Part shown: positions 10,587-36,379 of the stretch, in pieces | Layout of the letters: each line of letters starts with the position of its first letter | Position numbering within the stretch: the first letter of the stretch is position 1 | Assembly: GCF_900156165.1 (NCBI RefSeq) | Contig: NZ_FTMY01000012.1 | Span: 62,001 to 126,000 of the forward strand | From: Pseudacidovorax sp. RU35E | GTDB lineage: Bacteria > Pseudomonadota > Gammaproteobacteria > Burkholderiales > Burkholderiaceae_C | Direction of reading: 5' to 3' | Length of the DNA stretch: 64,000 nucleotides | Translations under genes and position numbers: made by a program | Notes under the pieces: model-generated | Databases searched by the model: none | What the model was told of the DNA's origin: nothing | What the model saw: only the letters and a program-made list of their open reading frames with translations

Positions 10587-10662
10587 GGGCTCTTAGCTCA
10601 GTTGGTAGAGCAGCGGACTCTTAATCCGTAGGTCGAGTGTTCGAGTCACTCAGGGCCCACCA
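10587..10662 (+). tRNA. tRNA-Lys (anticodon CTT)
   Basis: The 76-base gene folds as a complete cloverleaf. The acceptor arms are GGGCTCT (10587-10593) and AGGGCCC (10652-10658), with one G-T pair, then discriminator A and an encoded CCA. The D-arm is TAGCTCAGTTGGTAGAGCA. The anticodon loop CTCTTAA gives anticodon CTT (Lys). The T-arm is GAGTG-TTCGAGT-CACTC. A tyrosine recombinase gene ends 16 bases from its 3' end, so this tRNA is the likely attachment site of the integrated element to its right. Confidence 0.97.
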
Positions 10663-15177: not shown

Positions 15178-15411
15178 ATGCGGACTCAGGCAAAACGCCA
15201 TGACAGCGGGGCGCATGAGCGCACAGTCCGCGCTTCCATTAGCTTCCCGGAGGAGCAGTACCAGGTTCTTGAAAAAATCGCGGCAGAGAACAAAGTGTCT
15301 CTTGCCTGGGTGGTACGTGACGCGATCGATGGCTACTTGAAGTCCAGATGGCCGCTTCTCCCGCAAGGCACCGATGCCGAAGATGCGCAGCAGAGAAGCG
15401 AGAGAGCGTGA
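15178..15411 (+). CDS. Small ribbon-helix-helix (CopG-like) protein
   Basis: This 77-residue protein contains the beta-strand and two helices of a MetJ/Arc-type domain: RTVRASISFPEEQYQVLEKIAAENKVSLAWVVRDAIDGYL. Such proteins bind DNA as dimers and often repress their own operon. Its stop overlaps the GTG start of the methyltransferase (GTGA), so the two are translationally coupled. It could act as the control protein of the modification genes; a TAAAAT -10-like box lies at 15140-15145, before its ATG. The function is inferred from fold and position only. Confidence 0.75.
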   Translation: MRTQAKRHDSGAHERTVRASISFPEEQYQVLEKIAAENKVSLAWVVRDAIDGYLKSRWPLLPQGTDAEDAQQRSERA

Positions 15412-16502: not shown

Positions 16503-16542
16503 AAAATATGCACCTGCCCGGTGAGTCTCCCCAAGGATTGCT

Positions 16543-19500: not shown

Positions 19501-19656
19501 GCGGAGTATCTGAACATCCCGAAGTTCGACGACACCGACCTGCAAATGGCGGCCATCGGTAGTACGGCCCGGGATCTCACGAACAGGGCCGGAAACATCC
19601 AGCCCGCAGACCTTGAACAGCTCGATCTGCGCGTCCGGGAACTGCTATCGATCTAA
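16543..19656 (+). CDS. Large adenine-N6 DNA methyltransferase with nuclease-like N-terminal domain
   Basis: This 1037-residue protein starts at a GTG (16543) with an AAGGA site just upstream. The middle holds an N6-adenine methyltransferase: FYTPDWLAEH, then motif I DPTCGSGTFLLEA (near residue 390) and the catalytic motif IV NPPW (near residue 582). The C-terminal 400 residues form a TaqI-like target recognition region (VLWREMGNTFAAAYIG, then VVPDHKLYFIP). The N-terminal 150 residues resemble the PD-(D/E)xK-like domain of type IIG enzymes, but the usual E-x-K is VIEYEPP, so it may not cut. It ends 25 bases from the convergent helicase gene. It probably modifies host DNA for the island, with a BREX or DISARM-like methylase role by analogy. 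Confidence 0.88.
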   Translation: MSSATTTSLVSAVVSAAEISKNEAQLRHELENALEQACAELSIPWTPFQLERALKAKGKPTKFADVAHGAVVIEYEPPRSFSGRAGAKAVHARQQAEEYAELISAEEGRALGEYVLVAWDGAHITFGHFEGAAAAWEDVVAFDRISAERLLSALESNGRPLVHPQLLQALVGPDSEYGTALIPELYASICKADASPSTTKTKMLFSEWRRLFSQVVGFQPAHMKKLLARQEISHHQPYQENPAAYLFALNTYIAIIAKVVAACALPKASQNVLEPGVPVAERLRAVETGELFEHAGILNMLSGDFFSWYLDDSDWPRYQNALGAMLGRLAGVDFAVSKKHADTTRDLFKGIYERFIPREVRHALGEFYTPDWLAEHGMDLLEWQPSDSLTDPTCGSGTFLLEAIRRRRKADSGATAQSLLAGVHGIDLNPLAVLAAKGSLAVFLSPHLDPARPIRLPVYLADAVYPAAVDFFSNYSHILYTEVGPREFSVPEKMIEHPDFFSIFAKVRMLIDADFPAAKICSAILADLQAMGLDPSDIGIVNTTVGNLVELHDQGWNGIWCSILADRFAAGAIPPSSHICGNPPWVKWSNLPKDYAQSIQKHCKGLGVFSTDKWVGGIESDISTVITYQAVKHYLARDGRLGFFLPGSVFTTESSAGFRRFSIDNGSLQCRVLLVEDYQDIKPFDGVSNHPTFVMLQRDAETKFPVPYHSWTSSPDGQANQRTYASADQFRRSAARIDGTAVPVPGGDGTRPWLIGSAQDQAVFSKVFAASAKPEYKARKGITTDRNGIFWVHATGSVGTSLVTVQNAANIGKTKGIPQITAAVESEHLFPLLRGRGVTPFNAVPDADLRILVPQRGMHGDPNLPATSPHTFKFLNRFKPHLEQRSSLKRFQKGQEFYSLWSTGPYTFAPFKVLWREMGNTFAAAYIGSATIEHAGEKTVVPDHKLYFIPVESEPEAAYLTGFLNAPTIAKAVSAYAAQLSLGASVAEYLNIPKFDDTDLQMAAIGSTARDLTNRAGNIQPADLEQLDLRVRELLSI

Positions 19657-19681
19657 ATGGAGAGGTGCGCAGGCAACCGTT

Positions 19682-21370
19682 TCAAGCTACAGGCTCCGTT
19701 CTCAGAACACGGCTTGTCCGCTGCAAATACCACCGCAGAGCCTCGTCATTGGCCGCCATGATTGCAAGGCGGCCGGTCGCCCTAGTACACGCGACGTACA
19801 GGTCATCTGGACTGAGGGCCGCAATCCGGCCAGGAACATCGGCGTGCAACAGGACAACGTTCTTGCCTTCGAGCCCTTTGAATGAGCGGATGGTGGAGAA
19901 ATAGACGAAGCCTGGCTTTCCTAGCAAGGCAATGTCTTCTGTCACCTCAAGCCCGTACGCCTTCCTGGATGCCTCCAAACACGATTTCTCCAGCTTGAAA
20001 GGCGACAGGAAGATCGCCCCACCCTCAGGTGCAAGCTCATGGGCTGCCGCCCAGGCGGCTGCGGCAGCCGTTGCGCCCCATCCCTTTTTGAGCAGCGGAG
20101 CCGCGCCAACCGGGACACCTGGCATATGCACGACAGAAAGCTCGCAGCAGCCATTTGTTGCCGCATTCACAAGCTGGGTATTGCGGCAATTGTGGTACAG
20201 CCTGAACGTTACTTCTGCACCGATCGGCTCCTGCTTTGCCGACTTGTAGACGTTCTGTTCCCAGTCGGCGAAAAATAGCCACTGCCCAGCAGGCGTGAGC
20301 AAGTCCACCAATGCAAGCAGGCGAAGTTCTCCAAAGTCTTGGCCTTCATCCACGATGATGGCTTCATACTTTGATTGGAGTGGCAGTTCTGCCGCTACGT
20401 CTTGCACGAGGGACGGAAGCTCCTCAGTAAAAAAGGTTTGCCCGATCTTGCGTCCATCGGGCACTTTGGCCAGCTGGTAGAAAAGCCGGTCGACCGAAGT
20501 GATGGCCGCCGACATCTCAGGGTTCGCCAACTTCAGGTGCTCGGCAAGGGCCTTGTTGAAACAGACATACAATGCCCGCTTCCCTTCTTCGAGCAGTGCA
20601 TCCAGCTTCCACAGCGCGAGCAAAGTCTTGCCCGACCCAGCCGGGCCAACGATCGCAACGCGAGGAAGTTCAAAAGCTCCGCGCAGTGCTGCGAACTGCT
20701 GCCTCGTCAGTTCATCAAGGTCAACTGCATCCTCTTCAGCGTCAAGCGGTACATCGCGCGGCGCAATGCGGAATGATGCATTCGACAGGACCGCAGCAAC
20801 CCTGCCTGCCATATCAGCAGTGAACTCGCTTCCCTGTGCCTGGTGCACACGCGCCTCAAGGGCGCCTCGTATCCTACGTTCCAGGCGATGCATGTCCTGC
20901 GAGGGCACCACTGTGCTCGGGTCATACAGTGTGGAAGGCCCGTCGACATGACCATTTGGATACGCAACGAGGAAAGCAAATGCGCCCGGAAACCGCTGCC
21001 GGGGCAACCGGTCGCAAACGGCCTTCGCGAGTGTGTGCATGTTCCTGCACGCCTGCTCGGGCGGAGGTTCATCAATCGCAACTTCGGCCTTAACCTGGCC
21101 GGTGCGGCGGTCAGTTTCTTGACGGTACCAAATCCCGTTGTCGCCAACGCGTACCGAGCGCGAGCCTTTCACCTCAAGTACTGCCATACCAAGGCCAGGA
21201 ACTAGTACGACGAAGTCGCACTGCCCGTCCCTCACCAATCCTTGGTCGTTCTGCAATGCCCATGCGACATTGCACACCACTATCCAGTCGTGCGGCAACT
21301 GGTCAGCCAGCAAACGGCGCACCTCCCGCTCCCAGCGGTCCATGCTGTTTTGTCCGAGGATCTTCGGCAT
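19682..21370 (-). CDS. NERD nuclease-domain / superfamily 1 helicase
   Basis: The 562-residue protein begins with a NERD domain, a nuclease-related fold: CDFVVLVPGLGMAVLEVKG, with the D and E-x-K residues expected for catalysis. A UvrD/PcrA-type helicase follows: Walker A GPAGSGKT (near residue 243), Walker B VDEGQDF, and motifs V-VI with STIRSFKGLEGKNV and LYVACTRATGRL. The ATG at 21370 lies one base after the DruE-like stop, so the two are translated together; an earlier frame start at 21403 would overlap it. As a nuclease-helicase fused in one chain it could process DNA unwound by the larger helicase. I know of no standard Druantia type that includes this component. Confidence 0.88.
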   Translation of the reverse strand: MPKILGQNSMDRWEREVRRLLADQLPHDWIVVCNVAWALQNDQGLVRDGQCDFVVLVPGLGMAVLEVKGSRSVRVGDNGIWYRQETDRRTGQVKAEVAIDEPPPEQACRNMHTLAKAVCDRLPRQRFPGAFAFLVAYPNGHVDGPSTLYDPSTVVPSQDMHRLERRIRGALEARVHQAQGSEFTADMAGRVAAVLSNASFRIAPRDVPLDAEEDAVDLDELTRQQFAALRGAFELPRVAIVGPAGSGKTLLALWKLDALLEEGKRALYVCFNKALAEHLKLANPEMSAAITSVDRLFYQLAKVPDGRKIGQTFFTEELPSLVQDVAAELPLQSKYEAIIVDEGQDFGELRLLALVDLLTPAGQWLFFADWEQNVYKSAKQEPIGAEVTFRLYHNCRNTQLVNAATNGCCELSVVHMPGVPVGAAPLLKKGWGATAAAAAWAAAHELAPEGGAIFLSPFKLEKSCLEASRKAYGLEVTEDIALLGKPGFVYFSTIRSFKGLEGKNVVLLHADVPGRIAALSPDDLYVACTRATGRLAIMAANDEALRWYLQRTSRVLRTEPVA

Positions 21371-21371
21371 G

Positions 21372-24300
21372 TCAGAGACTCCCTTCTCCAGAGCGGAACG
21401 CAATCAGTGGCAAGCTGGGAAAAGATTGCCGGTCTAGGTAGGCGCCTCCAATCAGTTTGACCTTTAAGCCTGCACCTGGAACATTTGAAACCATCACCTT
21501 CGCCAGCCTGCCATTGACGTCCGCGAGCCACATTCCAGCTTGGGCCGCCCAGGCATCGCCGCCAGCTACTTTGGTCCAACTCCACCCATCAAGAACCGTG
21601 ACGCTGCCTTCTTGAGAATCGATAAGCGTCTGGATCCAGGGCTCCGCAGGCGTGGGAGCCGCGCCACCGCCGGCACCTGCGCCGCTGGCACCGATGTCGA
21701 GCTTGGGGAACAGATCCAGGTGGCCGCGCACCCATGCCATCCGGCGCGACAAGTTGAACGAGTCAACTAGGTGGATCGAGGTAGCTCCCATGCTACGGGC
21801 CCAACCAACAAGCGCCGCGTTGATCGGCCCATCGTCGGTTATAGATGCCGACCACAACGGATGGCTCACCAGATAAAAGGCCGTTGCTTCCTGGCCGGCA
21901 ATACCTGCTTGCGCTAGCCAGCCATGTGAACCAGCCGGCCCCGTCTGCCGAGCCAAGGTACCCTTTTCGTAGGCAGAGCAATAGGCATCCGCCAGCTCCG
22001 ACGCGAGTGCCTCCCAGCTACTCAGGCCAACGCCCCAATCCTCGAAGAACCGGTCCCGGCCAGGTACGAATGCGGGATCCTGTATGACGCGTAGGAGTTC
22101 AAGTCCCAGGCGCCATTCGATAAGTCCATGGAGCTGTCGGTTGCGGAAGCCGCGCAGCAGGAGGTCCGGCGACCGCCATACTTGTCCGCTTTGCGTTGCA
22201 CGCCTGCATTCCTCCCGGACCATTGTTCCAAGCCTTGCATGCTCGCCAGATCCATCAATGCAGCCATCCAACAAGGCCCTCCAGTTCCGGCTGGCCCAGC
22301 CAACCAGCCCTGCGCCGTTAGGATGGTCGTCGGCAAGGTACAGCTCAGTGCCTGCTACCGCACTGTCCTCCAAGTACTTGTGGACGGAGGCAATTTCTAT
22401 ATCAAGCGAATCGACGTCGAGCTCCAGTGCGATCGCGCGCTGCAAGATGGTGGCGGCGGAATACCAAGCCGCGCGCCTCGAGCACAGATCTTTGGTGCCG
22501 TCGAAGAATGCCAAACCGCCGCCATCGAGTAGCCTGATGCTCAAAATGTCCGTGGTTTTGGGAGATGCAATGCTCGCGGCGATCTCCGCTTCGTCAAGTG
22601 ACGCTTTCCATATTTGTCCATTCAACCATTGCGCACCCCTGTGCTGCCGGAGCGAAGCAGACTGGTTGAAACCGAATGGCTTACCACCCGGCCCCTGCGC
22701 AATGCGGTACACCTGCCCCTGTTGGTCCAAGGCCAGGAAAGCCCGCCCAAACGGGCGTTGCGGTACCGCACGCAGCGAAGGAGATGCAACAAAGGACCTT
22801 GGCCCCCCATTGCGCGAAGCCTCAGTCGACTTCACTGGCTTCTCAATATCTAGGTCGGTTAAAAAGCCATTTGGTACGACTGCCAAAGACACGTCTGAAA
22901 CAGAGCCGCATCGAGGGCAAGGTTGGGAGGGCGGATTCCTAATCCACGACTCCTCCCATCCAGCAATTACCTGGGTAGGCCGCAAAGTAGCGGGATCAGC
23001 ACGGTAAACAGTGAAATTCCGGCAGCTCTGGCAGAAGATCTGCCATGTTGCCTTCCCGATAGGGCGGTCAATGGTTTCCCACTGATAGCTACGGTCATGG
23101 GAAATCGATCCTACGAGGCCTATCGGAGAAAGCAGCCGTTTGTCCCAGACGCGCTCCGAACCCGGCGCAAAGTCAGTGATGGCATGGTCAAGTGTCCGGT
23201 CAAGCGATTTGGGTTCCCTCGATTGGTTTGCAGGATCTGGCGGAAGATGGAAGTACAGGTTACGGACCGAAGTCGGCATGCCATACATCGGCAGCACCCC
23301 CGCCTCGGCAAGCGCAGTAGCAAGGCCTTGGCTCGGATCAGGCGCGGTTCCCGCGACGCCCTCAAGGCGCACTGGCAGATCAAGGGCATCGGCGGCAAGC
23401 TGCGCTGGGTCGATTTCTGTTCCTCGCGTGACCACTTGAGCGATCCCGCTGATCTCAGCACGGTTGTCTATGAACCATTGTTCGACGGATGCTTTGCGCG
23501 TGCCTGCGTAGTCACTGACCAGCCCCATTTCGCCGTGCGTATCCACGGGCCTGCCAGAGTCGTGCCACATGCAACCGGCAGACCGGAATGCCCGGCGGAG
23601 AGCCTCTTTGGCTAGTAAGCGTTCAGCGAGGAGGCGCTGGTCCTCAGTTGCAGACACCGAAGGCTGCGGAGGTATACCTCCTGTCATCTCTTCTGGGTGG
23701 TCGAAGTGGATGCGGTCATGCGTCTGGCCGCGGCAGTACGTCAAGACTACAGAAAAAGCTTGGCCCTTACGGCCAGCTCGGCCTGCACGCTGCTGGTAAT
23801 TGAACCGTTCAGGAGGCATGTTGGCCTGGAACACAGATTGGAGCGCACCGATGTCCACGCCAACCTCCATCGTCGTTGTCACCGAAAGCAGGTCAATCGT
23901 GTCAACCAGGCGCACCACATCGCGCCGCACCACGTCCTCAATGCTTTCGTCTGGAAAGAAGACATCCCGGAAATGCCTCTGGCGCTGGGCCTGGTCACTT
24001 GTTTGCCCTGTCAGCTCCTCTGCGTGGATCCTGAACCCTGATTCAGCATCGGCTGCCAGATAGGCGTAGTAGTGGCCTGCCTCGATCTCCGCGGCCGAGC
24101 GCTGGCCATTTGGAATCGGAGGCAAGTGCCCTGTGCAGCGGGAACAGACACCTCCCGACGGCTGCCAGTGGACCTGGCCGCAGCGGTCGCAGACCCATGG
24201 CCGGGAATCGCGCGACGCGACTTTTACCCAAAGGAAAGACAGCTCGACAATTCCCCAGGCATCTGCGGTTCCGTGCCCGGCCCGGGCCAAAGTCTCACGT

Positions 24301-27300
24301 ACGCTATCCCGGAGGCTTTCCCAACCGACGCCTAGCCGGCTGGCACAGGCACTCAAATAGCTTCCGATTCGTGCCTTGTCAGCTCCCTCCCGCCGGTTTC
24401 CCCGCGGCTGCGCCCGGGTCCACGCCTCCGGAGGCCAGTCGCGTTGTGCGGGATTCGTGCGCCGCTGCTCGGTAAGGATGCGGATAACGCTCTCGCACAC
24501 GCCGCGGAATGCGTGCTTGTCTATGTTCGAAGCATGGAGCAGCTCCGCTGACGGTGGCAGGCAAAGATATCCAAGTCCCTGCGCCTCAAGGTCGTAAAGG
24601 AGGCGGCCGGAGATGGCTCGCCAAGACTGCTTGCGCAGGGCGTCCCCGAAGTGCTCAAGCCTGGCGGCTTTGGCTTGCGGAAACTCAGCCGACGAAAGTT
24701 TGGGCCCGTTTGGAGACTCGAAATCGAAGAACGAAGTCCAATCCTCCCTCTCACCGACACGCTTTGAGTCGATCCCGGGACCAGCAGGATTCACCCCAAT
24801 GCGCGTGAAAAACTCCCATAGCGGCGGAAGCACCTGCTTGGCCGGATCCGGCTGCGACAAGAACTCATCGAAACGGACAAACCCAGGTTGCCACCGATCG
24901 GTCCGGCTAACGTTTAACTTGGCATCGTCGCTAGCAAACTCCGCATCATCCTTTACGGATTTCGCGTCTCGCCAAAACTCTGCCAGTGCCTGGTACTCGG
25001 CGGCCGGAGACGATTCTTTTCTCTCCCGCAGGATTGCCTGGCCTTGGGCGATATCCCCGGCGCTTACGGCCTCAAGAAGCTGCTTCTTGATTGGCTCAAC
25101 GCCGCCCGCGGCCCTCACCCGGATTTCGCGAAGTACAGCAACCCGCAGCAAATGCTCCCATTGCTCCGCCTCGACGCCGTTAGCCAGTCTCGCTGCAGAT
25201 TGCCGGCTGTCCGAAAACGCAACAAGCTTGCGGCCGGCCCCCCGGGGCATTACTCCCATTAGGTGCTTGGTCAGCAGCAGGGAGGTCTGGGTCAAGCCAG
25301 TTGCGAATGACCGGACCGGCGCAGGCCTTCCACCTTTACGCACTGAGTAGTCGATCTTGCACGACGGGCAGCGCTGCGGCATTGCTGGAAGCACATCAAC
25401 GGAAGCTTCTAGGTGAAACCAAAGGCAGGGAATGCTATTCCCCGCAGGCTCATTCCCCACCTCAACAATGCCCGTCGACGGATCGATGGAAGAACGCAGC
25501 CAGCTCGCCGGAGCTGTGTGCACGGGCCGGCGGGTGGCCTCATCGCGCTCCTCTGACCCCTGCGTCCACCGAAGCTCTGACGGATCGGATGCGCCTTCCC
25601 AATCGCTCGGCAGCAAGTGGAGAACACCTAGGCTGTCATAGCGCTGGGCGTCAGTCCTGGTCTGGGGCGTCGACTCTGGCAGTCCTTCGATTGCTGGCGG
25701 CATAGGAGCAAGCTCATACCGTTCGACGCTCCCAGCGATGGACGCGGAAGTTTTATAGCCGGCAAGCAGCTGGGTTCCGCAGCATTCGCAGTACAGGACT
25801 TCGAGCGCACGGACTCCATCGACTTCCATCCGGGGCTCGGCAAGCAATCGCCCAACCCTGCGGCGCCGATCTAAGCCAACATGCTGCGCAGTTGCCCACA
25901 GTCCATCGATGTTCTTGACCATCCAATGGAACCGTATCCGCGGCAAAGGATGGGCAGGCTGGATTAGATTTTCCGACGCAAGCTGCGAGGCTCTTCCAGC
26001 CACAACGAAAAGGCTGCGGGCTGCATCGCTAGCGTCGCTTTCCGCCATGCTGGGGAACAGGCTGCGCAGATGGGGAGAAAGCGACTTGGCGCGATGGCGG
26101 CCACGCTCACCTTCGAATCTCCAAAACGAGTCTGCCAGGCGCTTGGCGGGAATGGCACCGCCGATGTTTGAGGCGAAATCACGCGCCAACGAGTCAATAG
26201 ACCTGGCACCGTTAGATTGCCTCGCCGCGGCCAGGCAATCCGCAGCAAAAGACTGAGGAATCTCAATGGGGCCTTGTGGATCCCCATTCACGCTGACACC
26301 GCCTTCTACATGGAACCTAGTTCTGGCGACCTCAACGCCCATCCCGAAAAACTCGCCGAGGAATTTATAAGTGTTGTCTGCCTCGCCATCAAGAGATGCA
26401 CTAGAAGCGAGGATTTGAAGCTGTCGGCTATCCGGTTCCAAGCCAAGGCGCGCTAGCAGCAATCGGAGCAAGTACCCGACCTCGGTGCCAGACGCACCAC
26501 GATACAGGTGGAGTTCGTCGAGGACAAGCTGGAAGACATGGTTGTCCCGGTCCTCTGCAAGCCACTCACGCGTTGCCTCAAAGACATCGGCGTCGGCGCG
26601 GTCCCCCGGAACAACAGTACTAGCCTGGCGCATGAGCATGATGGATAGCATGCTCACATTGGTGATTAGGAGGTCTGGAGGAGCAGCCTGCATCTCCCAG
26701 CGATGGAACATCTCGGCAGCGCTGGGCGACATCCGCGGCACAAACGACAGCTGCTCCCGAAGGTCGGCAAGTTGCTGCTGTGCTTCTTTGATGTCCGCAT
26801 CGGACGCAGCAGTTGACCGGCAACGCTCTTGGGCAGCCTGCAATGCGGCCAAGAGTTCCTGGTACTGCTTGATCGCTTGTTTCAATGCAGCCTTGAGCTC
26901 ATCGTGCTTGGGCTTGTTTGGTTCGCGCTGCCCCTGCTCGTCAAGCCTCCATGGGTGGCCTGGTACCGGGGTAGTGCCGTTGTAGCGGCCAAACCGGACG
27001 CGGTTCGCCCCCCAGTGCCGGTCGAACGCAGCATGCGCCTCATCGGAGTCCAACGCGCGGCGCAAGCGCGACATCTGGTCCTCCACCAAAGCGTTCATTG
27101 GGTACAAGAGCAAAGCCCTAACCGCTGGCCTCCTGGTCTCGCCCCGCGCGGCTGCCCGCCCGAAATCCCACGGTGGAGCGATCTGCCACTCGGAAGCTGA
27201 GGCCATCTTCGGTGCAGCCTTGGCCCAGCCACCTGCCCCGCGGAGTGCTTCCCTCGCGATGGTTGCAAGTACCGGGAGCAAGAACGACTCTGTCTTGCCA

Positions 27301-27677
27301 GAGCCCGTCCCGGTGACGACCACACAATGTTTGCGCTGCATCGCGGCCTGGAGCATCCGCTGCTGGTGCATGTACAAGTTAGCGCCGGCAGGCATGAGTC
27401 CAGCGCCAGCCAAAGCAATAAAGCCCTGCCTTGCGGCTTCACCCATACCAGGAAGGTCGGAATGGTCAAGCGCGCCAAGCGCTTTGGAACTTACGTAGGA
27501 GGGCAGCAACTCAAGATACGGCTCTTGGAATAGCACCCCGGGAGTATTGAGAAGCGCTTCGCGCTCCTCTTCAAAAGACGGTGAGTCGGTGCCAAATGCT
27601 GACTGGATATACCGCTTGAGATGGCCTTTGAGCTGCTCCCATGAACCGAGCGGATCTTCGCCTATCGTTTCTCGCAC
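21372..27677 (-). CDS. druE: DruE-like giant DEAD/DEAH helicase with DUF1998-like C-terminus
   Basis: This 2101-residue superfamily 2 helicase is the size of Druantia DruE. Walker A is VVTGTGSGKTESF (near residue 122), motif Ia LLYPMNALVEDQ, motif II LVLDELHLYRG (near 387), motif V TTTMEVGVDIGALQ and motif VI QRAGRAGRKG (near 1297). A four-Cys pair (CDRCGQ, CSRC) lies near 1162, a second (CQSC, CPRC) near 1550-1587, and DUF1998-like LYLADDHPNGAGLVGW near 1784. A GTG start at 27677 is preferred: GGAGG lies nine bases upstream and the upstream gene ends 13 bases before it. The ATG at 27698 has no ribosome site and overlaps the upstream gene. It is probably the motor of an anti-phage system with the genes on either side. 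Confidence 0.85.
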   Translation of the reverse strand: MRETIGEDPLGSWEQLKGHLKRYIQSAFGTDSPSFEEEREALLNTPGVLFQEPYLELLPSYVSSKALGALDHSDLPGMGEAARQGFIALAGAGLMPAGANLYMHQQRMLQAAMQRKHCVVVTGTGSGKTESFLLPVLATIAREALRGAGGWAKAAPKMASASEWQIAPPWDFGRAAARGETRRPAVRALLLYPMNALVEDQMSRLRRALDSDEAHAAFDRHWGANRVRFGRYNGTTPVPGHPWRLDEQGQREPNKPKHDELKAALKQAIKQYQELLAALQAAQERCRSTAASDADIKEAQQQLADLREQLSFVPRMSPSAAEMFHRWEMQAAPPDLLITNVSMLSIMLMRQASTVVPGDRADADVFEATREWLAEDRDNHVFQLVLDELHLYRGASGTEVGYLLRLLLARLGLEPDSRQLQILASSASLDGEADNTYKFLGEFFGMGVEVARTRFHVEGGVSVNGDPQGPIEIPQSFAADCLAAARQSNGARSIDSLARDFASNIGGAIPAKRLADSFWRFEGERGRHRAKSLSPHLRSLFPSMAESDASDAARSLFVVAGRASQLASENLIQPAHPLPRIRFHWMVKNIDGLWATAQHVGLDRRRRVGRLLAEPRMEVDGVRALEVLYCECCGTQLLAGYKTSASIAGSVERYELAPMPPAIEGLPESTPQTRTDAQRYDSLGVLHLLPSDWEGASDPSELRWTQGSEERDEATRRPVHTAPASWLRSSIDPSTGIVEVGNEPAGNSIPCLWFHLEASVDVLPAMPQRCPSCKIDYSVRKGGRPAPVRSFATGLTQTSLLLTKHLMGVMPRGAGRKLVAFSDSRQSAARLANGVEAEQWEHLLRVAVLREIRVRAAGGVEPIKKQLLEAVSAGDIAQGQAILRERKESSPAAEYQALAEFWRDAKSVKDDAEFASDDAKLNVSRTDRWQPGFVRFDEFLSQPDPAKQVLPPLWEFFTRIGVNPAGPGIDSKRVGEREDWTSFFDFESPNGPKLSSAEFPQAKAARLEHFGDALRKQSWRAISGRLLYDLEAQGLGYLCLPPSAELLHASNIDKHAFRGVCESVIRILTEQRRTNPAQRDWPPEAWTRAQPRGNRREGADKARIGSYLSACASRLGVGWESLRDSVRETLARAGHGTADAWGIVELSFLWVKVASRDSRPWVCDRCGQVHWQPSGGVCSRCTGHLPPIPNGQRSAAEIEAGHYYAYLAADAESGFRIHAEELTGQTSDQAQRQRHFRDVFFPDESIEDVVRRDVVRLVDTIDLLSVTTTMEVGVDIGALQSVFQANMPPERFNYQQRAGRAGRKGQAFSVVLTYCRGQTHDRIHFDHPEEMTGGIPPQPSVSATEDQRLLAERLLAKEALRRAFRSAGCMWHDSGRPVDTHGEMGLVSDYAGTRKASVEQWFIDNRAEISGIAQVVTRGTEIDPAQLAADALDLPVRLEGVAGTAPDPSQGLATALAEAGVLPMYGMPTSVRNLYFHLPPDPANQSREPKSLDRTLDHAITDFAPGSERVWDKRLLSPIGLVGSISHDRSYQWETIDRPIGKATWQIFCQSCRNFTVYRADPATLRPTQVIAGWEESWIRNPPSQPCPRCGSVSDVSLAVVPNGFLTDLDIEKPVKSTEASRNGGPRSFVASPSLRAVPQRPFGRAFLALDQQGQVYRIAQGPGGKPFGFNQSASLRQHRGAQWLNGQIWKASLDEAEIAASIASPKTTDILSIRLLDGGGLAFFDGTKDLCSRRAAWYSAATILQRAIALELDVDSLDIEIASVHKYLEDSAVAGTELYLADDHPNGAGLVGWASRNWRALLDGCIDGSGEHARLGTMVREECRRATQSGQVWRSPDLLLRGFRNRQLHGLIEWRLGLELLRVIQDPAFVPGRDRFFEDWGVGLSSWEALASELADAYCSAYEKGTLARQTGPAGSHGWLAQAGIAGQEATAFYLVSHPLWSASITDDGPINAALVGWARSMGATSIHLVDSFNLSRRMAWVRGHLDLFPKLDIGASGAGAGGGAAPTPAEPWIQTLIDSQEGSVTVLDGWSWTKVAGGDAWAAQAGMWLADVNGRLAKVMVSNVPGAGLKVKLIGGAYLDRQSFPSLPLIAFRSGEGSL

Positions 27678-27690
27678 TTTTACCGTCCTC

Positions 27691-30600
27691 CTAAGCATTT
27701 AAAGTTTCTGGGCTAAACGCAGCCTCGGTGCACTCGAATGGAACCAATGCGCACCCCAGCAATGCAGCAACCCGCCTCGCGATCTCCGCGGGAACCCAGC
27801 TATAGCAGAGCCAATGCCCAGGAACGAACTCCCGGTACACATGGCTAATAGCACCAACAACACGTCCAGAGTGGCTGTCGAAAACCGGCGACAGGTCCTC
27901 GGTATGAGCGCCTGAAATAAGGAAATGGACCAAGGGCCCAGTGCCAGCGCAAAGCGCAAGTGCGCGCTCTAGAACAGCCGGTGGCCGCAGCCGCGCTGGG
28001 ACCCACAGATTGCGCGCTTCTGGGTCGTAGTGAAGCGGCCAAGGAAAGGCATCGTTCCGGCCATGCTGTTCCTTGAGCATCTGGGCAAAGGCCATTTGGG
28101 ATGTCCAAACTCCCCAACGTGAGTCAGGAACATGCGAATACCTCGGCGTGCCGTCTGCGCGACGCACCCCCAGCACGTACAGTTGCAAGGCAGTCGCCTG
28201 CGGATCATCGAAGCGGAAAAGCTGAGCGCCGCACTCCCGGTCAATAGTCATTCGCTGATCGGCAACAGGTACGAACCGGGCCGTATCCGCCTTCAAGCGA
28301 TGCAGGTGTCCTAGCTCGGCAGAGATTGCTTCTGCCCCTCGCAACTCCGCAGCCACCCTGGACTGCTGCAGTGAGCCGGCCCAGAACGCTACATCCCGCG
28401 CCGGCGCCTGAGCAAAGAGAAACCCCATTGGTGAGCACTCCGCCTTGACCGAGTCCTCGTCAACCGCAGCCACGCGCACCGCCGGCAGGTGGCCAGCAAA
28501 TGGTTCTGCGGCAGCCAACATGAAGTTGGGATTGGCTTGGAGCAAGCCCCATTGGGCTAAGCGCAAGGTTCCCGATACGCCAAATAACGGCAACCCATCT
28601 TGCGTGGAAGGTAGTCCGTAGAGCGAGGGCGCTACACCGTGGACACGGACGAAGTGTCCTTTGCCATTGGTCTCGATTTCTAGGCATCCTCGCGCTCGGA
28701 GGTCCATCAGTAATGAAATCGGATTGGTACCACAGCAGAGCCTAGAGATCTGGTCCCTTGCTGCTCCGTAAGAAATCGATCCTCTCGCGGCCAAGGTGTC
28801 CAAGAACTGGGCTGCGCCTAATTCTGAGAAGCTCCCGTCCATCCACCCGGTTACGGCAGCGACATTACTCACTTGGTCGCGATGCCATATCCCTGCAGGG
28901 AGGTCTTGGCCGCCAATGAAGATCCCTCTCAGCCCATCAACACCAGGTCTTGGAAACCCCAAGGAATCGAGAGAAAAATCCTTGGCCTCCCCACGGCCCT
29001 CCCCGTCCAGATCCGCAACCCGAAGGCGAAGGTTCGCAAGCTCGGCCGAGCCTGCTACAAGCTTGATTTCAAAGCTGCTGCGGGTCAGGTCGGACAAACC
29101 TAGCAGAAAGCGCCGAAAGCCCGACGGCCCTTCTTCCGCAGAGTGCTGCGGCACTTCCGATAGCTGAAGTCCTGGAGCATGCAGCTGCGCCCCAGGAGGG
29201 GCGTCAAGTTCGACAGCAGGCAGGTCATACGAAGCGAACAAGCGTGCGCCGCCACGCAGCAGCCGGCTCCCCCCCACAAACCGCAACCTAGCCTGCGGCA
29301 CGTCAATGGCCTCAGTTTCATCCGCCAAGTACTTCCGTTGCTCGGCAGTGAGCCTTTCTGCTCTATGGATACAAGCCATCTGCCAGCCGCTCGGCAAGCC
29401 GCGCACGTCCATTGCTTCAAAAGAAACCTGTTCCCGCCTTAGCCATGGATTGGTCCTATCCCAATCAGCCGGAGCACAAACAAGGTAGAAAACTCCGTAG
29501 AGTGGCAGCTCCCGCTCAGTCAGCTGTTGTCCGAAGCGCGGATCAATGGAATTCCAAGCCAGTATCCGACGAGACGTTTGGCGGATGGGTTCCTTGCGGC
29601 TCTGGTCCTCGTACATGCCTGAGCCGTCGTCGTCAAAGTGAACCATGGCCTCAAGTTGCCCAAAGGCCGAATCAGAAAGGGCAGCGAGCGATTGGCGGAC
29701 GTGGTGCGGCGAAGCGTCGGTGAGGAAGATGGCACTCGCGCGGTGCAAGCGAGCAGCCATACGCTGCCCTGCAATCTCAAAGCTGCAGCCGGGGGCATCA
29801 ACTATGGCCGGAAAACTCCAACACACATCCCATCCGTTGGGCACCTCCTCTGACGGCAGAAGGACAAGCGTGACTGCGGCCTTCGCTTCACCGGGTTCGT
29901 TAGCCAGTTCCTCACCGCTGGCTCGGCCTGAGCTGGGTATGCCGGATTTTGGGCGGCCTCCACTCCACATGCCCATAAGCTTCCGCAAGAGCGCAGCCAA
30001 CGGTAACTGGTACTCGGGCCTCGCCATGGCAGATCGAAGCGCCTTGGTCAGGAAGACGGATTCGCGGCCGCGCTGCATTAAGGACGCGAGCGCCATGTCG
30101 GTCAGATCCTGGCCAGGCCGGAACCTGGCCTCCCAGAACAGCCTCGATAGGTTCCGTTCATCCTGGCGGCTTATCAAAGCCTGCGAGCGAGGGATACCTA
30201 CAAACCTGTGCTCTCCGAGCACTCGGCAGTGGAAGATGCCGTAGCGTCCGCCGCACTCCTTGGACGACCAGGTTTCGAGGTCCTCCCACGCCCGAGACAT
30301 ACCCTCGGTGACCTTGGGCTCATTCCTGAAAGTTTGTCCAAGCCATCCCTGCACCGAGGCGTAGAAGCCGCCCTCCACCTGCTCATCCGATGCGGCCAGC
30401 ACCCATAGTGCAAGGATGGGGAGGTAGGCTGGAGCTCGCATCCCTGCGTACCTCGGGTTTGCAGTTCCTGGATCAACATACGCCGGAGTCCGTAGTACAT
30501 CCTTGCGCTGATCGACCAGAATACGGGCTGCCACAGCACAGTTGGGAAGACTTGGCAACCACGGAGCGCCAGATCCAACGGCGTCTGCTAGCCCCTGGGC

Positions 30601-30729
30601 GCCGCCAAGGTGCAGGCCAAATGAGTCAAGTTCGGCGCGAGTTGCGCGAATCCAGACCTCTTCGCGTTCTGCCGCTGCGGAGAAAAATTCCGTGAGCAGC
30701 AGATCGTTCCATGCAACGAACAGAGACAT
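27691..30729 (-). CDS. Large DruH-like protein of a Druantia-type defence operon
   Basis: This protein of about 1012 residues has no motif I can name. It lies immediately upstream of the DruE-like helicase (13 bases between), and the pair, one of about 1000 and one of about 2100 residues, matches the two-gene layout of Druantia type III (druH-druE). The N-terminus is MSLFVAWNDLLLTEFFSAAAE from the ATG at 30729; a TTG at 30741 would add four residues. The middle contains segments resembling a beta-rich module and the C-terminal 200 residues include EQHGRNDAFPWPLHYDPEARNLWVPARLR. It could alternatively be DruG of type II, given the nearby cytosine methyltransferase. The assignment rests on size and neighbourhood. 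Confidence 0.7.
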   Translation of the reverse strand: MSLFVAWNDLLLTEFFSAAAEREEVWIRATRAELDSFGLHLGGAQGLADAVGSGAPWLPSLPNCAVAARILVDQRKDVLRTPAYVDPGTANPRYAGMRAPAYLPILALWVLAASDEQVEGGFYASVQGWLGQTFRNEPKVTEGMSRAWEDLETWSSKECGGRYGIFHCRVLGEHRFVGIPRSQALISRQDERNLSRLFWEARFRPGQDLTDMALASLMQRGRESVFLTKALRSAMARPEYQLPLAALLRKLMGMWSGGRPKSGIPSSGRASGEELANEPGEAKAAVTLVLLPSEEVPNGWDVCWSFPAIVDAPGCSFEIAGQRMAARLHRASAIFLTDASPHHVRQSLAALSDSAFGQLEAMVHFDDDGSGMYEDQSRKEPIRQTSRRILAWNSIDPRFGQQLTERELPLYGVFYLVCAPADWDRTNPWLRREQVSFEAMDVRGLPSGWQMACIHRAERLTAEQRKYLADETEAIDVPQARLRFVGGSRLLRGGARLFASYDLPAVELDAPPGAQLHAPGLQLSEVPQHSAEEGPSGFRRFLLGLSDLTRSSFEIKLVAGSAELANLRLRVADLDGEGRGEAKDFSLDSLGFPRPGVDGLRGIFIGGQDLPAGIWHRDQVSNVAAVTGWMDGSFSELGAAQFLDTLAARGSISYGAARDQISRLCCGTNPISLLMDLRARGCLEIETNGKGHFVRVHGVAPSLYGLPSTQDGLPLFGVSGTLRLAQWGLLQANPNFMLAAAEPFAGHLPAVRVAAVDEDSVKAECSPMGFLFAQAPARDVAFWAGSLQQSRVAAELRGAEAISAELGHLHRLKADTARFVPVADQRMTIDRECGAQLFRFDDPQATALQLYVLGVRRADGTPRYSHVPDSRWGVWTSQMAFAQMLKEQHGRNDAFPWPLHYDPEARNLWVPARLRPPAVLERALALCAGTGPLVHFLISGAHTEDLSPVFDSHSGRVVGAISHVYREFVPGHWLCYSWVPAEIARRVAALLGCALVPFECTEAAFSPETLNA

Positions 30730-30872
30730 CCCGCGAATCAATGTAGCGGCGCCCTAGCCCGCCTGCAAGTTCGCGCCTCCAAGCTTCTCAGGCTTTCAAG
30801 TCGTACCCCGTGTATCGGCGCGCAGCTCGGTGACATGTACTCCCCTCCCCTACAGCTGATTGATGGTCTAGG

Positions 30873-31888
30873 TGTCGTGTCTCAATAGGTTGTTCACCCG
30901 GAAGGGTCTGGGAGACTGGAGTTACCACGCTTCAGTCACCAGAGGATCTTCCGAGTGAACAGCCATAAGAATGCCAGATTGACCTTCGAAGGACGCAAAT
31001 TGCTTGTCCAGCGCATCGCCACCCTGGGGCTGATGCCCGCAGCCGAGGCTGCGGGCATCAGCCCGCGCACCGCACGCAAGTGGCTCCAGCGCTTCGAGCA
31101 GCATGGCGAGCACGGCCTGCTGGACCGCAGCTCGCGCCCGTCTCGCACGCGCTCCTGCCTGGATGCGCAGCTTTGCGAGCGCATTGAGCAGTTGCGCCGC
31201 TCGCGCATGCCCATGCGGCAGATCGCTCGCATCGTCGGGCGCAGCGTGCCCACCGTGTGCCGGCTGCTCGCCCGCCTGGGACTGTCCAGCCTGAAGGCGC
31301 TCGATCCTGCAAGCGTGCCGCTGCGCTACGAGCGCGAGGCACCCGGTGAGCTTCTGCACATCGACACCAAGAAGCTCGGGCGCATCGTGCGGCCCAGCCA
31401 CCGCGTCACAGGCAACCGGCGCGACTCGGTGGACGGCGCAGGCTGGGAGTTCGCCCACGTGGCCATCGACGACCATTCCCGTCTGGGCTTCGTGCAGATG
31501 CATGCTGATGAGCGCAAGGACTCGGCGGTGAGCTTCCTGCTGGCGGCCGTGGCGCACTATGGGCAGCTGGGCGTGAAGATCAAGCGGCTGATCACCGACA
31601 CCGGCTCGGCGTATCGCTCGCGGCTGTTCGCCAAGACCTGTCAGGCGCTGGGCATCAAGCACACCTTCACCCGGCCTTACCGCCCCCAGACCAACGGCAA
31701 GGCCGAGCGTTTCATTCAGACCTGTCTGCGCGAATGGGCCTATGGACGCACCTGGGCCAACAGTGCCGAGCGCACCGCCTGGCTGCCAGCTTTCCTGCGC
31801 TACTACAACGGCGAGCGCCCGCACTACGCTCTGGCACACCAACCACCAGCCTCCCGCCTTTGTGGGAACAACCTATTGCAACTCGACA
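30873..31888 (+). mobile_element. Intact IS481-family insertion sequence with target duplication
   Basis: The 1016-base element has 23-base terminal inverted repeats that both begin TGTCG and end CAATAGGTTGTTC, with four mismatches between. It is flanked on both sides by the direct repeat TCTAGG (30867-30872 and 31889-31894), a six-base target duplication. Intact ends and duplication indicate a fairly recent insertion between the DruH-like gene and the ATPase gene. Confidence 0.95.
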
Positions 31889-31893
31889 TCTAG
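30955..31893 (+). CDS. IS481-family transposase
   Basis: This 312-residue DDE transposase has an N-terminal HTH (GLMPAAEAAGISPRTARKWLQRFEQHGEHGLLDRSSRP) and an rve-type integrase core. The catalytic acids are visible in LLHIDTKKLGRI, LITDTGSAYRS and FTRPYRPQTNGKAERF. It fills the whole element. The last codons cross the right inverted repeat, and the TAG stop at 31891-31893 is supplied by the TCTAGG target duplication, so the C-terminus depends on the insertion site. Confidence 0.93.
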   Translation: MNSHKNARLTFEGRKLLVQRIATLGLMPAAEAAGISPRTARKWLQRFEQHGEHGLLDRSSRPSRTRSCLDAQLCERIEQLRRSRMPMRQIARIVGRSVPTVCRLLARLGLSSLKALDPASVPLRYEREAPGELLHIDTKKLGRIVRPSHRVTGNRRDSVDGAGWEFAHVAIDDHSRLGFVQMHADERKDSAVSFLLAAVAHYGQLGVKIKRLITDTGSAYRSRLFAKTCQALGIKHTFTRPYRPQTNGKAERFIQTCLREWAYGRTWANSAERTAWLPAFLRYYNGERPHYALAHQPPASRLCGNNLLQLDI

Positions 31894-32084
31894 GTACATT
31901 CTGCAACAGTGCTGAACTGCCGCAGCGCATGCCCCCGCATCTCGGCGCGCAGTAACGGGCCCATGATCTGTGGCTACCCCATCGCGGTTGACCTGTTGAG
32001 TTCCGATCGAGACCGGACATTGACCAATACACAAGACCAGTTCAAAGCGCGAGCGAGCCTGTAACGCGATGCTACATTCCAGCC

Positions 32085-34025
32085 ATGGATCAAGATGCAA
32101 AGCCTTCCCAGCGAAAGATCACTTTAGTTAAAAAGTCCACTGCCGAAATACGTCAAAATGATGCATCCGGAAGACCGCGGACAATACAGGTGGAAGTTCG
32201 GAAGAAAAGGACCTTCATCAAGCGGGAGGACGTGGAAAAAAAGGAGGCCAATGCATCCACGATGCCCACAGGAATTTCCGTTGATCAGATCAGCCCTCAA
32301 ATAGATTCCCGTCAGAAAAAGATCCGCTGGCGAAAAATCAAGTCTATCGAGATATCGAATTTTAAAGCCATAGAAAAATTAGACCTTCCACTTTCAAACG
32401 TCACGGTACTTGTTGGGCCGAACGGTTCAGGAAAGTCATCAGCACTTCAAGCTATTCATTGGGCCACACGGGCGGCGAGCTACATCCCCCCTAAAGAGCA
32501 ATCAGAAGTCGTATCGTTTGAAAGACTTGATTACTCGCCATCGAGCGAGCCCCTAACTACTGCTCATCGGGGTGTTCTATCCGCGGAGAGAAGCAGCCAG
32601 CCGACCTCGGTTGTATTCAACCATTTCGAGGAAGAGGCTGATCAAGCAATTTCGGCAACAATTAAAATCTGGGCCGCTCGTAATCGAGGGGGGATATCTG
32701 TTCACATTGAGGGCGGCAATGCCGTATCTCCTTTTAAGCAGCGTGAAGAGCTAATTTCAACGTACATCCCCGGCCTTGCAGGCCTCTCTGAAAAGGAAAC
32801 TATTCTAGTTAAGCCCCTGCTACGGAGGCAAGCTGCTGGAGGCGACGCCGGAAGTGTTTTAAGGAATGTTCTTTTCAACATTGCCAGCCGACAGTCGTCG
32901 GAAATAGACAACACCTCAGCAATAAAGAGAATAGAACACTTAAATCGGTTGGTGCAAATCGTCCACCCCAACGTTCGGGTTGAGGTAACCTTCGATGAGA
33001 GGGAGGATATACATATTCAGGCATCTTTCGATGACAATTTGCTTTGCGGCGTCAAGCGACCGTTGGAAACGGCCGCAACAGGGGTTTTGCAAGTCATCCA
33101 AATATTCGCATATCTAGTTCTATTTCGCCCCAAAATTATTCTTATCGATGAGCCAGATGCCCACCTTCATCCAGACAAACAAGAGCGGTTGATAGAGGCG
33201 CTGGAGCTTGCAGCTAGTGAATTTGAAGTACAAGTACTGTTAACCACACACAGTCCACATATTGCACGCGCCGCTTCGCCAGCAGTTGGGCTTCTTTGGG
33301 TGAACAATGGACGTGTTGTTGAAGAGCAGAATGGAAAAATACGCTCACTACTTGGATGGGGTGGGCTCGATAGAAAAATTTTGTTTTTCGTCGAAGATGA
33401 AAATGATCTTGCCATTCGGAGCATTTTGAGGCAATGGCCTCACCTCCATCGGCAAATCAATGTTTGCAGATGCTTTGGCGTTGATAATTTGCCAAAAAAC
33501 TCTCTACTTAAAGGCTTACTGGGGGAAGAGGCGTTCAGCATTAAAGCTTTGATCCACCGCGATCGGGACTTTATGACCGAAGACGAAAGTGTCATATGGA
33601 GGCGAAAATACAATGCCGATGGCGTTGCCACATGGGTCACGCAAGGCTCTGATGCCGAAGCCTATTTCTGCTCTCCCTCATACCTGTCTGCTATTTATGA
33701 TATATCTGAAGAAGACGCAAGGCAATGGCTAGAGTCCGCAATTGAATCCTGTTCGGACGCGGAGAGAGTTTTCAAAGAGAAGCGCAGAGTCATTAATAGG
33801 CTGTTGCACGAAGATGGCGGCTCCCCTGCAACCTCAAATCTATGGAATTCTGGCGGACGGATTTCAGCACAAAACATCCTTGGAAAATCCCTTCACAAGG
33901 CCTTGAAAACGGTTGCAAAACAGCAAAAAAGAGATGACCGGCAATTGGATAGATTTTTCATTCCAGCGAATCATGAAATCGCAAGTGAACTTCGCCTCAC
34001 TATAGAAAGCCTATTAAATCTATAA
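32085..34025 (+). CDS. OLD/PARIS-like ATPase-TOPRIM protein with N-terminal IF-2-associated-domain mimic
   Basis: This 646-residue protein joins three parts. Residues about 11-48 ([19 protein letters not shown] then [17 protein letters not shown]) closely resemble the IF-2-associated domain near the N-terminus of translation initiation factor IF-2. Residues 85-400 form an ABC/AAA_15-type ATPase: Walker [10 protein letters not shown] (111-119), Walker [13 protein letters not shown] (near 351) and TTHSPHI. Residues about 425-560 are TOPRIM/DUF4435-like, with VEDEND and HRDRDF as the acidic residues. ATPase-TOPRIM proteins of this kind (OLD, PARIS AriA-AriB) act in phage defence. The gene is much richer in AT than its surroundings, which suggests recent transfer. 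No partner gene is adjacent. Defence function is inferred; the IF-2 likeness is seen directly. Confidence 0.88.
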
Positions 34026-34429: not shown

Positions 34430-35097
34430 CTACACGCGCTGCGCGCGCACCTGCCCCAGCGTTCGCATGCGCGTGAGGTGGTAGGCGCTCATCGTCAGCA
34501 CGAACATCTGGTCCACCCGCTCAAGGCCTCGCACCGCCACCTGGCGCATGCGCCCCACCGTCTTGGCCCAGCCGAAGCCCTGTTCGATGAGCTTGCGCTT
34601 TTGATGGGAGATCGCATAACCCGGACTACCTGCAATGACATCGGATACCGCAGAGCGCCTGCCCGAAGTGTTCTGTGCCACATGCGGCGTCACCCCCATG
34701 TCCAGGCACTCCTTGACGAACTCCCTGGCGTCGTAGCCCTTGTCCGCCCCCACGGTGATGTTCAGCGTGTGCTCATCGGCCGCCTCCACTGCCGCCTGGA
34801 GCATGGTCTTGGCCGCCTCGCGTTCGGCATGCCCATCGGCGCGGGTGACCATCGCGTTGGCGATCAGCCCGTGGCGGTTGTCCGCCAGCGTGTGGCCCAT
34901 GAAGCGCAGTTCGCTGCCCGTCTTGCCCTTGCGATACAGCCTGGCATCCGCATCGGTGCTGGACTGGTGCGTGGCGTTGCTGCGCCGCTGGCCCCGGAAG
35001 TTGTCCGAGTCGCTGCCCGAGTCCGAGTCATCGCCTGCGTCGCCAGCATCGGATTTGCGCACGAAGCTCTTGTGACCGGCCCAGGCCTGGATCAGCG
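34430..35097 (-). pseudogene. IS5-family transposase, N-terminal half deleted
   Basis: The frame encodes the C-terminal part of an IS5-type DDE transposase: TLIQAWAGHKSFVRK, DADARLYRKGKTGSELRFMGH, ITVGADKGYDAREFV and GRMRQVAVRGLERVDQMF, ending at 34430. Its upstream part stops exactly at the IS3-family inverted repeat at 35098, and no matching N-terminal part is found on the far side of that element. The IS3 insertion was therefore accompanied by or followed by a deletion. The frame continues into the IS3 element only as unrelated reading. Confidence 0.88.
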
Positions 35098-35147
35098 TGA
35101 ATGACCCCGGTTTTCGAGGAGGCTCAACACTCTGAGAGGATTGAGCC

Positions 35148-35471
35148 ATGAGCAAGTCGAACAAGTTCTCACCCGAGGTGCGTGAGCGCGCGGTGAGGAT
35201 GGTGCAGGAGCACCGCGGGGAGTACCCGTCGTTGTGGGCGGCCATCGAGTCCATCGCGCCCAAGATTGGCTGCGTGCCGCAGACTTTGAACGAATGGGTC
35301 AAGCGCGCCGATGTCGATGCTGGTGCCCGGGAGGGCGTGACGAGCAGCGAGGCGCAGCGAATGAAGGAGCTCGAGCGCGAGGTCAAGGAGCTGCGCCGGG
35401 CCAACGAGATATTGAAGCTGGCCAGCGCGTTTTTCGCCCAGGCGGAGCTCGACCGCCGGCTCAAGTCCTGA
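35148..35471 (+). CDS. IS3-family transposase OrfA
   Basis: This 107-residue protein has an HTH ([35 protein letters not shown]) followed by a leucine-zipper segment ([31 protein letters not shown]), as usual for IS3 OrfA. It binds the ends and regulates transposition. Its stop overlaps the beginning of the OrfB frame, which lies at -1, allowing an OrfAB fusion by frameshift. Confidence 0.92.
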
Positions 35472-36379
35472 AGGACTTCATCGACAAGCACCGCGATGCC
35501 TTCGGGGTCGAGCCGCTCTGCAAGGTCTTGCAGGTCGCCCCGTCGGCGTATCGACGCCATGCCGCGCTGCTGCGCGAGCCCCACAGGCGCTGTGCCCGCG
35601 TCCAACGCGACGAGATGCTGATGCCGCAGATTCAGCGTGTCTGGCAAGCCAACATGCAGGTCTACGGCGCCGACAAGGTGTGGAGGCAACTGGCACGCGA
35701 AGGCGTCTCTGTTGCTCGCTGCACCGTCGAGCGATTGATGCGCAAGCTGGGGCTGCGCGGCGTGATGCGTGGCAAGGTCGTGCGAACCACGCTCGGTGAT
35801 GCCAAGGCCCAGTGCCCGCTGGACCGGGTCAACCGGCAGTTCCGGGCCGAGCGGCCGAACCAGCTGTGGGTCAGCGACTTCACGTACGTCTCGACGTGGC
35901 AGGGCTGGTTGTACGTGGCCTTCGTTATCGACGTGTTCGCCCGTCGCATCGTGGGCTGGCGCGTGAGCAACTCAATGCGAACGGACTTCGTGCTCGATGC
36001 GCTGGAGCAGGCCCTCTACGCCCCGCAGCCTGAGCGCAATGGGAGCCTGATATGCCACAGCGACCGCGGGTCGCAATACGTCAGCATCCGGTACTCAGAA
36101 CGCCTGGCAGAAGCGGGAATCGAGCCGTCGGTGGGCAGCAAGGGCGACAGCTATGACAACGCCCTGGCCGAGACCATCAACGGCCTCTACAAGGCCGAGC
36201 TCATCCATCGCCGAGCGCCTTGGAAGACGAAGGAGGCGGTGGAGTTCGCGACGCTCGAATGGGTGTCCTGGTTCAACCACCAGCGACTGCTCGAACCCAT
36301 CGGATATATCCCGCCGGCCGAAGCCGAGGCAAACTATTACCGGCAACTCGCCAGTCAGGCCACCACGGTGGCGGTCTGA
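35468..36379 (+). CDS. IS3-family transposase OrfB (DDE catalytic domain)
   Basis: The rve-type core is complete. It reads HTH_21-like [33 protein letters not shown], then the catalytic Asp in [20 protein letters not shown], the second Asp in [12 protein letters not shown], and Glu in [15 protein letters not shown]. The start is uncertain: the coding match begins at [13 protein letters not shown] directly at the OrfA stop, and no ATG is close, so the product is probably made as a -1 frameshift fusion with OrfA, as in other IS3 elements. Confidence 0.9.

Follow-up and report, generated by a model that had tools for sequence, protein, structure and literature searches.

Why should a defence-type ATPase begin with a piece of its host's translation initiation factor IF-2? 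The question is raised by an open reading frame at 32085..34025 (+) of the window, as we call the whole 64,000-nucleotide stretch of Pseudacidovorax sp. RU35E DNA analysed here. It encodes a 646 aa protein made up of an IF-2 mimic, an OLD/PARIS-like ATPase and a TOPRIM-like tail, and no clear Shine-Dalgarno stretch lies ahead of its ATG at 32085. A sequence-only reading had recognized an IF-2-associated domain at the N-terminus, and hmmscan bears this out: residues 10-47 (32112..32225, +) match positions 2-39 of the 39 in the Pfam profile IF2_assoc (PF08364) with 55.4 bits, above the curated cut-off of 24 (E 7.1e-15), and the identity of the captured module is solid. The module has a pI of 11. 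A Pfam hmmscan of the window protein returned no IF2_N (PF04760) at E<=10, and the GTPase and C-terminal domains of IF-2 were likewise unmatched at E<=10. The true IF-2 of the source genome sits elsewhere (G000:C13:430145; 63.6 bits, in a 1003 aa open frame), and it and the window gene are the only two IF2_assoc matches in that genome. The alignment with IF-2 of the same genome that had been proposed as a check gave 73% identity over 45 residues, and the best IF-2 row in our set reached 80% over 40 residues. Such a second match is rare: at E<=1e-4 the domain was found in 272 of 300 genomes of the order, with two matches in the source genome only, and at E<=1e-3 in 301 of 369 genomes of the class, with two matches in three (the source genome, G1311 and G1579). 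The double matches in G1311 (7% contamination) and G1579 are possibly due to contamination or split genes.

The remainder of the protein is of a familiar sort. The ATPase part, delimited by Pfam and defence-model matches and by motifs, occupies residues ~84-420 (32334..33344, +), and the fusion to an OLD/PARIS-like ATPase that had been claimed is upheld by matches to AAA_15 (E 2.1e-30) and AAA_21 (E 2.1e-24). We take GPNGSGKS (111-118) to be Walker A, IILIDEPD (351-358) Walker B and TTHS (387-390) the H-loop. Among ATPase-like models the body matches NsnB, AriA, mad3, Old, PtuA and GajA; it scores far under the cut-offs of the NCBIfam defence models, the best stretch of the AriAB fusion model covers residues 84-134 only, and the best solved chain by sequence, 6p74 (E 3.2e-10), is matched over residues 85-125 only. 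The tail (residues 424-646; 33354..34022, +) was assigned by motif. All 23 aligned sequences keep residues E437, D438, H491-R-D-x-D-F-M497, D523 and E525, which we take to be the make-up of a TOPRIM site. Neither Pfam nor PADLOC gave a match for the window tail, and a PDB search with a profile of 20 tails returned nothing at E<=10; AriB (PADLOC) weakly matched two of the 20 tails (best E 0.0077) and DUF4435 (Pfam) one (E 0.044), the window tail being in neither group. Of the TOPRIM/DUF4435-like tail that had been described, the motifs have thus stood, but the window tail found no counterpart among the models and PDB chains searched. The TOPRIM-like assignment is a putative and purely motif-based one, from which an active nuclease would be predicted.

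Several known systems share this plan in part. OLD Class 1 proteins (P2 Old, Thermus scotoductus OLD) likewise consist of one gene, without a helicase partner, in which an ABC-type ATPase is followed by a TOPRIM-type tail, and 6p74 is named as T. scotoductus OLD, of the OLD family, in PMC10568477. However, the window tail escapes TOPRIM models and resembles theirs by motifs only, and an N-terminal IF-2 Domain I module is absent from the account of OLD in the passages of PMC10568477 consulted. The window ATPase scores with the AriA model of PARIS (4.7e-32), but equally with the NsnB model (2.3e-32), and unlike PARIS it has no partner gene beside it and carries the IF-2 module. Its body is also homologous to the ATPases of Gabija GajA and retron-associated PtuA; no GajB-like gene was seen among the adjoining ORFs read (the weak GajB scores obtained belong to a NERD/UvrD-type ORF ~11 kb away), and the PtuA score is 61.8 bits against a cut-off of 500. 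Our searches of open-licence PMC papers turned up no IF-2 module on a defence protein. The ATPase-TOPRIM plan is known, and the host-matched IF-2 module is new relative to the literature found.

The gene lies in DNA that was evidently acquired. GC content is 0.475 at 32001-34000 as compared to 0.585-0.631 in 2-kb intervals from 14 to 32 kb, and rises to at most 0.725 further out, in agreement with the AT-rich, acquired DNA noted from the letters. Insertion sequences flank the gene on both sides, leaving it to stand alone: upstream is a transposase ORF (30955..31893, +; read from the ORF) that is presumably IS481-like, and downstream, at 34430..36379 (ORF reading), are ORFs that we take to be IS5-like in part (34430-35689, −) and IS3-like (35148-35471 and 35234-36379, both +). 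A conserved partner gene was ruled out, as no common neighbour was seen in six module-bearing loci whose ORFs were judged by eye (L083 was outside this comparison). A tRNA-Lys (10587..10662, +) marks the edge of the lower-GC stretch and adjoins an ORF judged by reading to be recombinase-like (10678-11919, −); a second exact copy of the last 15-30 bases of the tRNA was not found within the window. Beyond the insertion sequences sits a cluster matched by Druantia models (15348-30741), comprising a DruM-like cytosine methylase (15348-16502), a type IIG restriction-methylase (16543-19656), a NERD-helicase-like ORF (19682-21403, −), a DruE-like ORF (21372-27698, −) and a partly DruF-like ORF (27691-30741, −).

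Scanning 84,980 species genomes with six short peptides yielded 19 loci, tblastn against plasmids 18 records (5 covering >=80% of the protein) and a viral-contig scan 11 loci, of which the N-termini of L071-L074 were read and L075-L081 were short weak matches. The occurrence of the protein family is patchy and rare. Genome searches gave hits in 1 of 399 genomes in the order, 3 of 399 in the source organism's own family, 8 of 298 in the genus that includes the Pseudomonas carrier and 2 of 144 in the genus that includes L006; two of the family hits and two of those from the Pseudomonas-carrier genus have the module. These counts may be low because the searches scored the best three candidates per genome (eight in the L006 genus).

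The sequence-only reading had also suggested looking for other ATPase-TOPRIM proteins with the domain, and seven were found, most of them fuller by an added IF2_N-like part. By their N-termini, the eight module carriers are the window protein and relatives in Paracidovorax oryzae (L003), Burkholderia aenigmatica (L004), Burkholderia sp. SRS-W-2-2016 (L006), a Paraburkholderia phymatum megaplasmid (L024), Pseudomonas sp. PDM16 (L005), a genome of the same genus as the latter (L083) and a viral contig (L071, 7794-9890). In hmmscan, IF2_assoc is over its cut-off in six of the eight (the window protein, L003, L004, L006, L024 and, at 36.2 bits, L083) and under it in L005 (22.5 bits, although searching the genome gave 25.1) and L071 (16.9 bits). 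IF2_N is over its cut-off of 25.3 in four (L004, L005, L006, L024), under it in L071 (20.8 bits) and L083 (21.1 bits), and was not found in the window protein and L003, which have the start MD-x-D-x-KP in common. Six of the seven relatives thus start with an IF2_N-like part and hold IF-2 Domain I, with IF2_N and IF2_assoc in the same order as in bacterial IF-2; in contrast to IF-2, the mimics lack the GTPase part and are fused to the ATPase body.

The viral contig (73.9 kb) carries its IF2_N-like and IF2_assoc-like version amid phage-type genes, so the protein may serve a phage against its rivals. The ten ORFs around it all match PHROGs families, including those of a phage helicase, ParB-like proteins and homing endonucleases. 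Five pattern scans for more viral-contig copies brought up only this contig with the module. Plasmid records were matched by the 62-aa window N-terminus (20), the 98-aa L024 module (22) and the 100-aa L083 module (1), and among the records inspected only that of P. phymatum holds an ATPase protein. By annotation or reading, records from Niveibacterium, Amphritea, Legionella, E. coli, Acinetobacter and Aeromonas proved to hold IF-2 or its usual neighbours, and further matches are annotated as IF-2, with an unannotated remainder (e.g., Proteus, Neisseria). Several "plasmid" records, among them L023 and L028, contain infB or genes of its operon and appear to be pieces of chromosome. Of five matches in phage records, three are annotated as IF-2, one is unannotated, and that in Pseudomonas phage Y6 (L029; UNVERIFIED) is a plain IF-2 of Pseudomonas type, so that part of this record looks like host chromosome.

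The body occurs without the module in 22 close relatives, an absence checked by profile in 20 and by reading in L085 and L087. The profile check covered whole genomes or records for L007, L008, L013, L018, L019, L020, L026, L084 and L088, and N-terminal stretches for L008, L011, L013, L015, L009, L010, L012, L014, L016, L017, L025, L027 and L086. Module-less proteins (L007-L018, L020, L025-L027, L084-L088) have other N-terminal leaders, which are alike within groups (e.g., L013-L015). No known Pfam domain was over cut-off in four such N-termini, and in nine further ones the sole matches to pass it were to the beginning of the ATPase, in two proteins; these leaders could be other host-derived modules.

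Did one ancestor capture the module and hand it down? A body tree of the ATPase-to-tail part comprised 33 rows, 25 of them without the module (3 as outgroup); it left out L021 (partial), L074, L031 (34% identity, no module), L075-L081, the weaker plasmid matches H5-H18 and the repeats L022, L030 (a repeat of L003 by its protein start), L082, L090-L093 and L103. In this tree the bodies of the eight carriers form one clade (100/99). A module tree, in which the program flagged long branches, was built over ~100 columns from the eight modules and 34 IF-2 sequences (13 gamma, 21 beta), and here a branch with support of 100/98 sets the gamma rows, together with both Pseudomonas mimics, apart from the rest. 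Forcing all eight modules into one clade costs 43 log units (p-AU 0.0003), and a single clade is also rejected for the six modules with IF2_N-like parts (p-AU 0.0019), for five mimics when L083, L071, the window protein and two long IF-2 rows are omitted (p-AU 0.0014), and for L005, L006 and L024 (p-AU 0.0029). Separate origins among the beta-type copies are only weakly indicated (p-AU 0.031 for six; 0.093 for the window protein, L003, L006 and L024), and for the two Pseudomonas mimics a single clade is compatible with the data (p 0.49). A single capture followed by inheritance is thus ruled out by the AU tests, most strongly for Pseudomonas versus beta copies.

Each module also resembles the IF-2 of its host group. 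All eight have their top IF-2 score on one side of the beta/gamma divide, which is the host's side wherever the copy comes from a bacterial genome or plasmid; the best for the viral-contig copy is beta. For the seven other copies, identity to IF-2 of the same genome is 46-73% over 45-96 residues, and the own-host IF-2 ranks 1, 1, 1, 1, 2, 6 (L004) and 7 (window) among the 34. The sum of own-host pairing scores was reached by 3 of 5040 re-pairings, the true one included, a test that leaves in place the correlation of host group with body phylogeny. Anecdotally (n = 2), the Pseudomonas-type copies vary as their own IF-2s do (RKKKVYIQR/RKKKVFVQR and RKKKTYIKA/RKKKTYVKR). A recent copy of the host's own infB is ruled out because 27-54% of aligned residues differ. 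Most safely, the modules of one body clade are ascribed to at least two sources, gamma and beta; separate capture, exchange with the infB of the host and convergence would each account for this. Their likeness to the host group suggests a module that attaches to, or monitors, one of IF-2's host partners, e.g., the transcription factor NusA.

That the module is translated follows from its constraint: when the window copy is set against that of Paracidovorax, changes are seen at ~27 of 33 synonymous sites as compared to ~19 of 114 nonsynonymous ones. Homologues lacking the first 60 residues, which the sequence-only reading had listed as counting against its proposal, do exist, as the module-less majority of the body tree attests, but the carriers are one clade and their module is constrained.

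NusA is a candidate partner for the following reasons. IF2_N and IF2_assoc correspond to E. coli IF2 residues 1-50 and 57-90. According to PMC12297416, this stretch of Domain I binds NusA in E. coli, the sole species for which binding is reported there; the NusA-binding piece was modelled on residues 1-50 and 57-90, position 88 was crosslinked to NusA, and deleting the NusA C-terminus virtually abolished the nucleoid-associated binding of Domain I. In the window protein, the last lysine of V36-E-V-R-K-K41 (32190..32207, +) is the equivalent of position 88, and V83, E84, R86, K87 and K88 (E. coli numbers; V-E-x-R-K-K) are kept in all eight mimics; further columns conserved in IF-2 are less well kept (e.g., 3 of 8 mimics have T60, and 3 of 6 have Q23). 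The host NusA has a C-terminal repeat region with 47% identity to that of E. coli over 129 residues, and AR domains are described as mostly acidic, with lambda N binding NusA-AR1, in PMC7171158. However, the window and Paracidovorax copies lack IF2_N, a part of the modelled NusA contact, and the authors of PMC12297416 caution that the IF2 N-terminus and the NusA C-terminus are both unconserved and that species beyond E. coli need study. The NusA dock is thus the best reading and not a result; by analogy with E. coli IF2, the mimic may bind NusA.

On these grounds we put at about even chances the proposal that the protein is a stand-alone, mobile, defence-type ATPase-nuclease that uses a host-matched copy of IF-2 Domain I to dock on NusA. 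It would be an enzyme of the OLD/PARIS sort, serving in anti-phage defence or superinfection exclusion, that captured IF-2 Domain I as its N-terminus; the module would let it take the place of IF-2 Domain I on the host partner of that domain. Most likely this is NusA, bound at its KH2/AR1 part while it rides on RNA polymerase during transcription. The docked enzyme might be a guard, kept inactive until a phage factor alters or occupies the site, or docking might be a tether that carries it to phage transcription complexes. Defence against phage is the proposed function, and the Druantia-like genes nearby, the phage-type gene context of one copy and the patchy occurrence count in favour of a defence-type role. 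The more specific idea is that the enzyme, seated on NusA by a mimic that stays matched to the local host, guards the NusA-IF2 coupling hub and is set off by a phage antiterminator or takeover protein that disturbs the site, NusA-AR1 being used by lambda N as well; this is tentative, and we lean against it.

The modules' resemblance to the IF-2 of their own host group is also what would be expected of bait. A phage protein that attacks or modifies IF-2 Domain I would then hit the mimic and trigger the immune protein, with NusA uninvolved. Between L006 and L024, the sole pair with countable silent change (it is saturated in the remaining pairs), the module (residues 1-97) outpaces the body as in an arms race (dN/dS 0.40 versus 0.07, with similar dS of 0.23 and 0.20; Fisher p ~8e-5 for the make-up of changes, from rounded counts). 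The module in this pair is under constraint yet changes faster than the body, and its dN/dS remains below 1; the faster drift also fits relaxed constraint. Literature searches that touched on this point without being directed at it yielded no phage protein with IF-2 Domain I as its target, and strains without Domain I are reported to be viable, which would make it an odd target. We consider such bait unlikely.

The existence of so many module-less bodies, together with the loss or reduction of IF2_N in two copies, might instead mean that the captured infB start is a passive leader that aids expression or solubility and has no specific partner. This would leave unexplained why well-diverged modules match their host group, why V-E-x-R-K-K is retained throughout and why purifying selection is seen, and we hold it to be quite unlikely.

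The sequence-only reading had thought of a tether to initiating ribosomes, by which the module would deliver a TOPRIM enzyme that cuts tRNA or mRNA to the 30S subunit during initiation. IF-2 does act on the ribosome, but its ribosome contacts lie mainly in parts that are absent from the mimic. The AriB TOPRIM of PARIS cuts tRNA, as stated in PMC12409363, which would suit such an enzyme; however, the captured stretch is the counterpart of the E. coli IF2 piece for which NusA binding is reported, and the near-complete dependence of Domain I nucleoid binding on the NusA C-terminus (PMC12297416) argues against a ribosomal address. The ribosome is therefore not the best-supported destination, and we regard it as very unlikely. 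Finally, IF-2 has an influence on replication restart and is found close to phage Mu ends, so the module might steer a DNA nuclease to replication-restart or transposition intermediates of Mu-like phages. In PMC3334882, full-length and short IF2 both precipitate with Mu ends in a chromatin assay, but in the in vitro Mu system only truncated IF2 was found active, and these truncated forms, lacking the N-terminal 157-164 residues, lack the captured stretch; we regard this reading as highly improbable.

A defence-type protein that has borrowed a piece of the host's translation machinery, and has kept it matched to the host group, would be clear sequence evidence of host mimicry in a bacterial conflict system. 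It also hints, independently and on evolutionary grounds, at a specific partner for IF-2 Domain I beyond E. coli, and whether that partner is NusA becomes directly testable. If the guard reading is true, bacteria would be watching the point where transcription meets translation for signs that a phage is interfering there.
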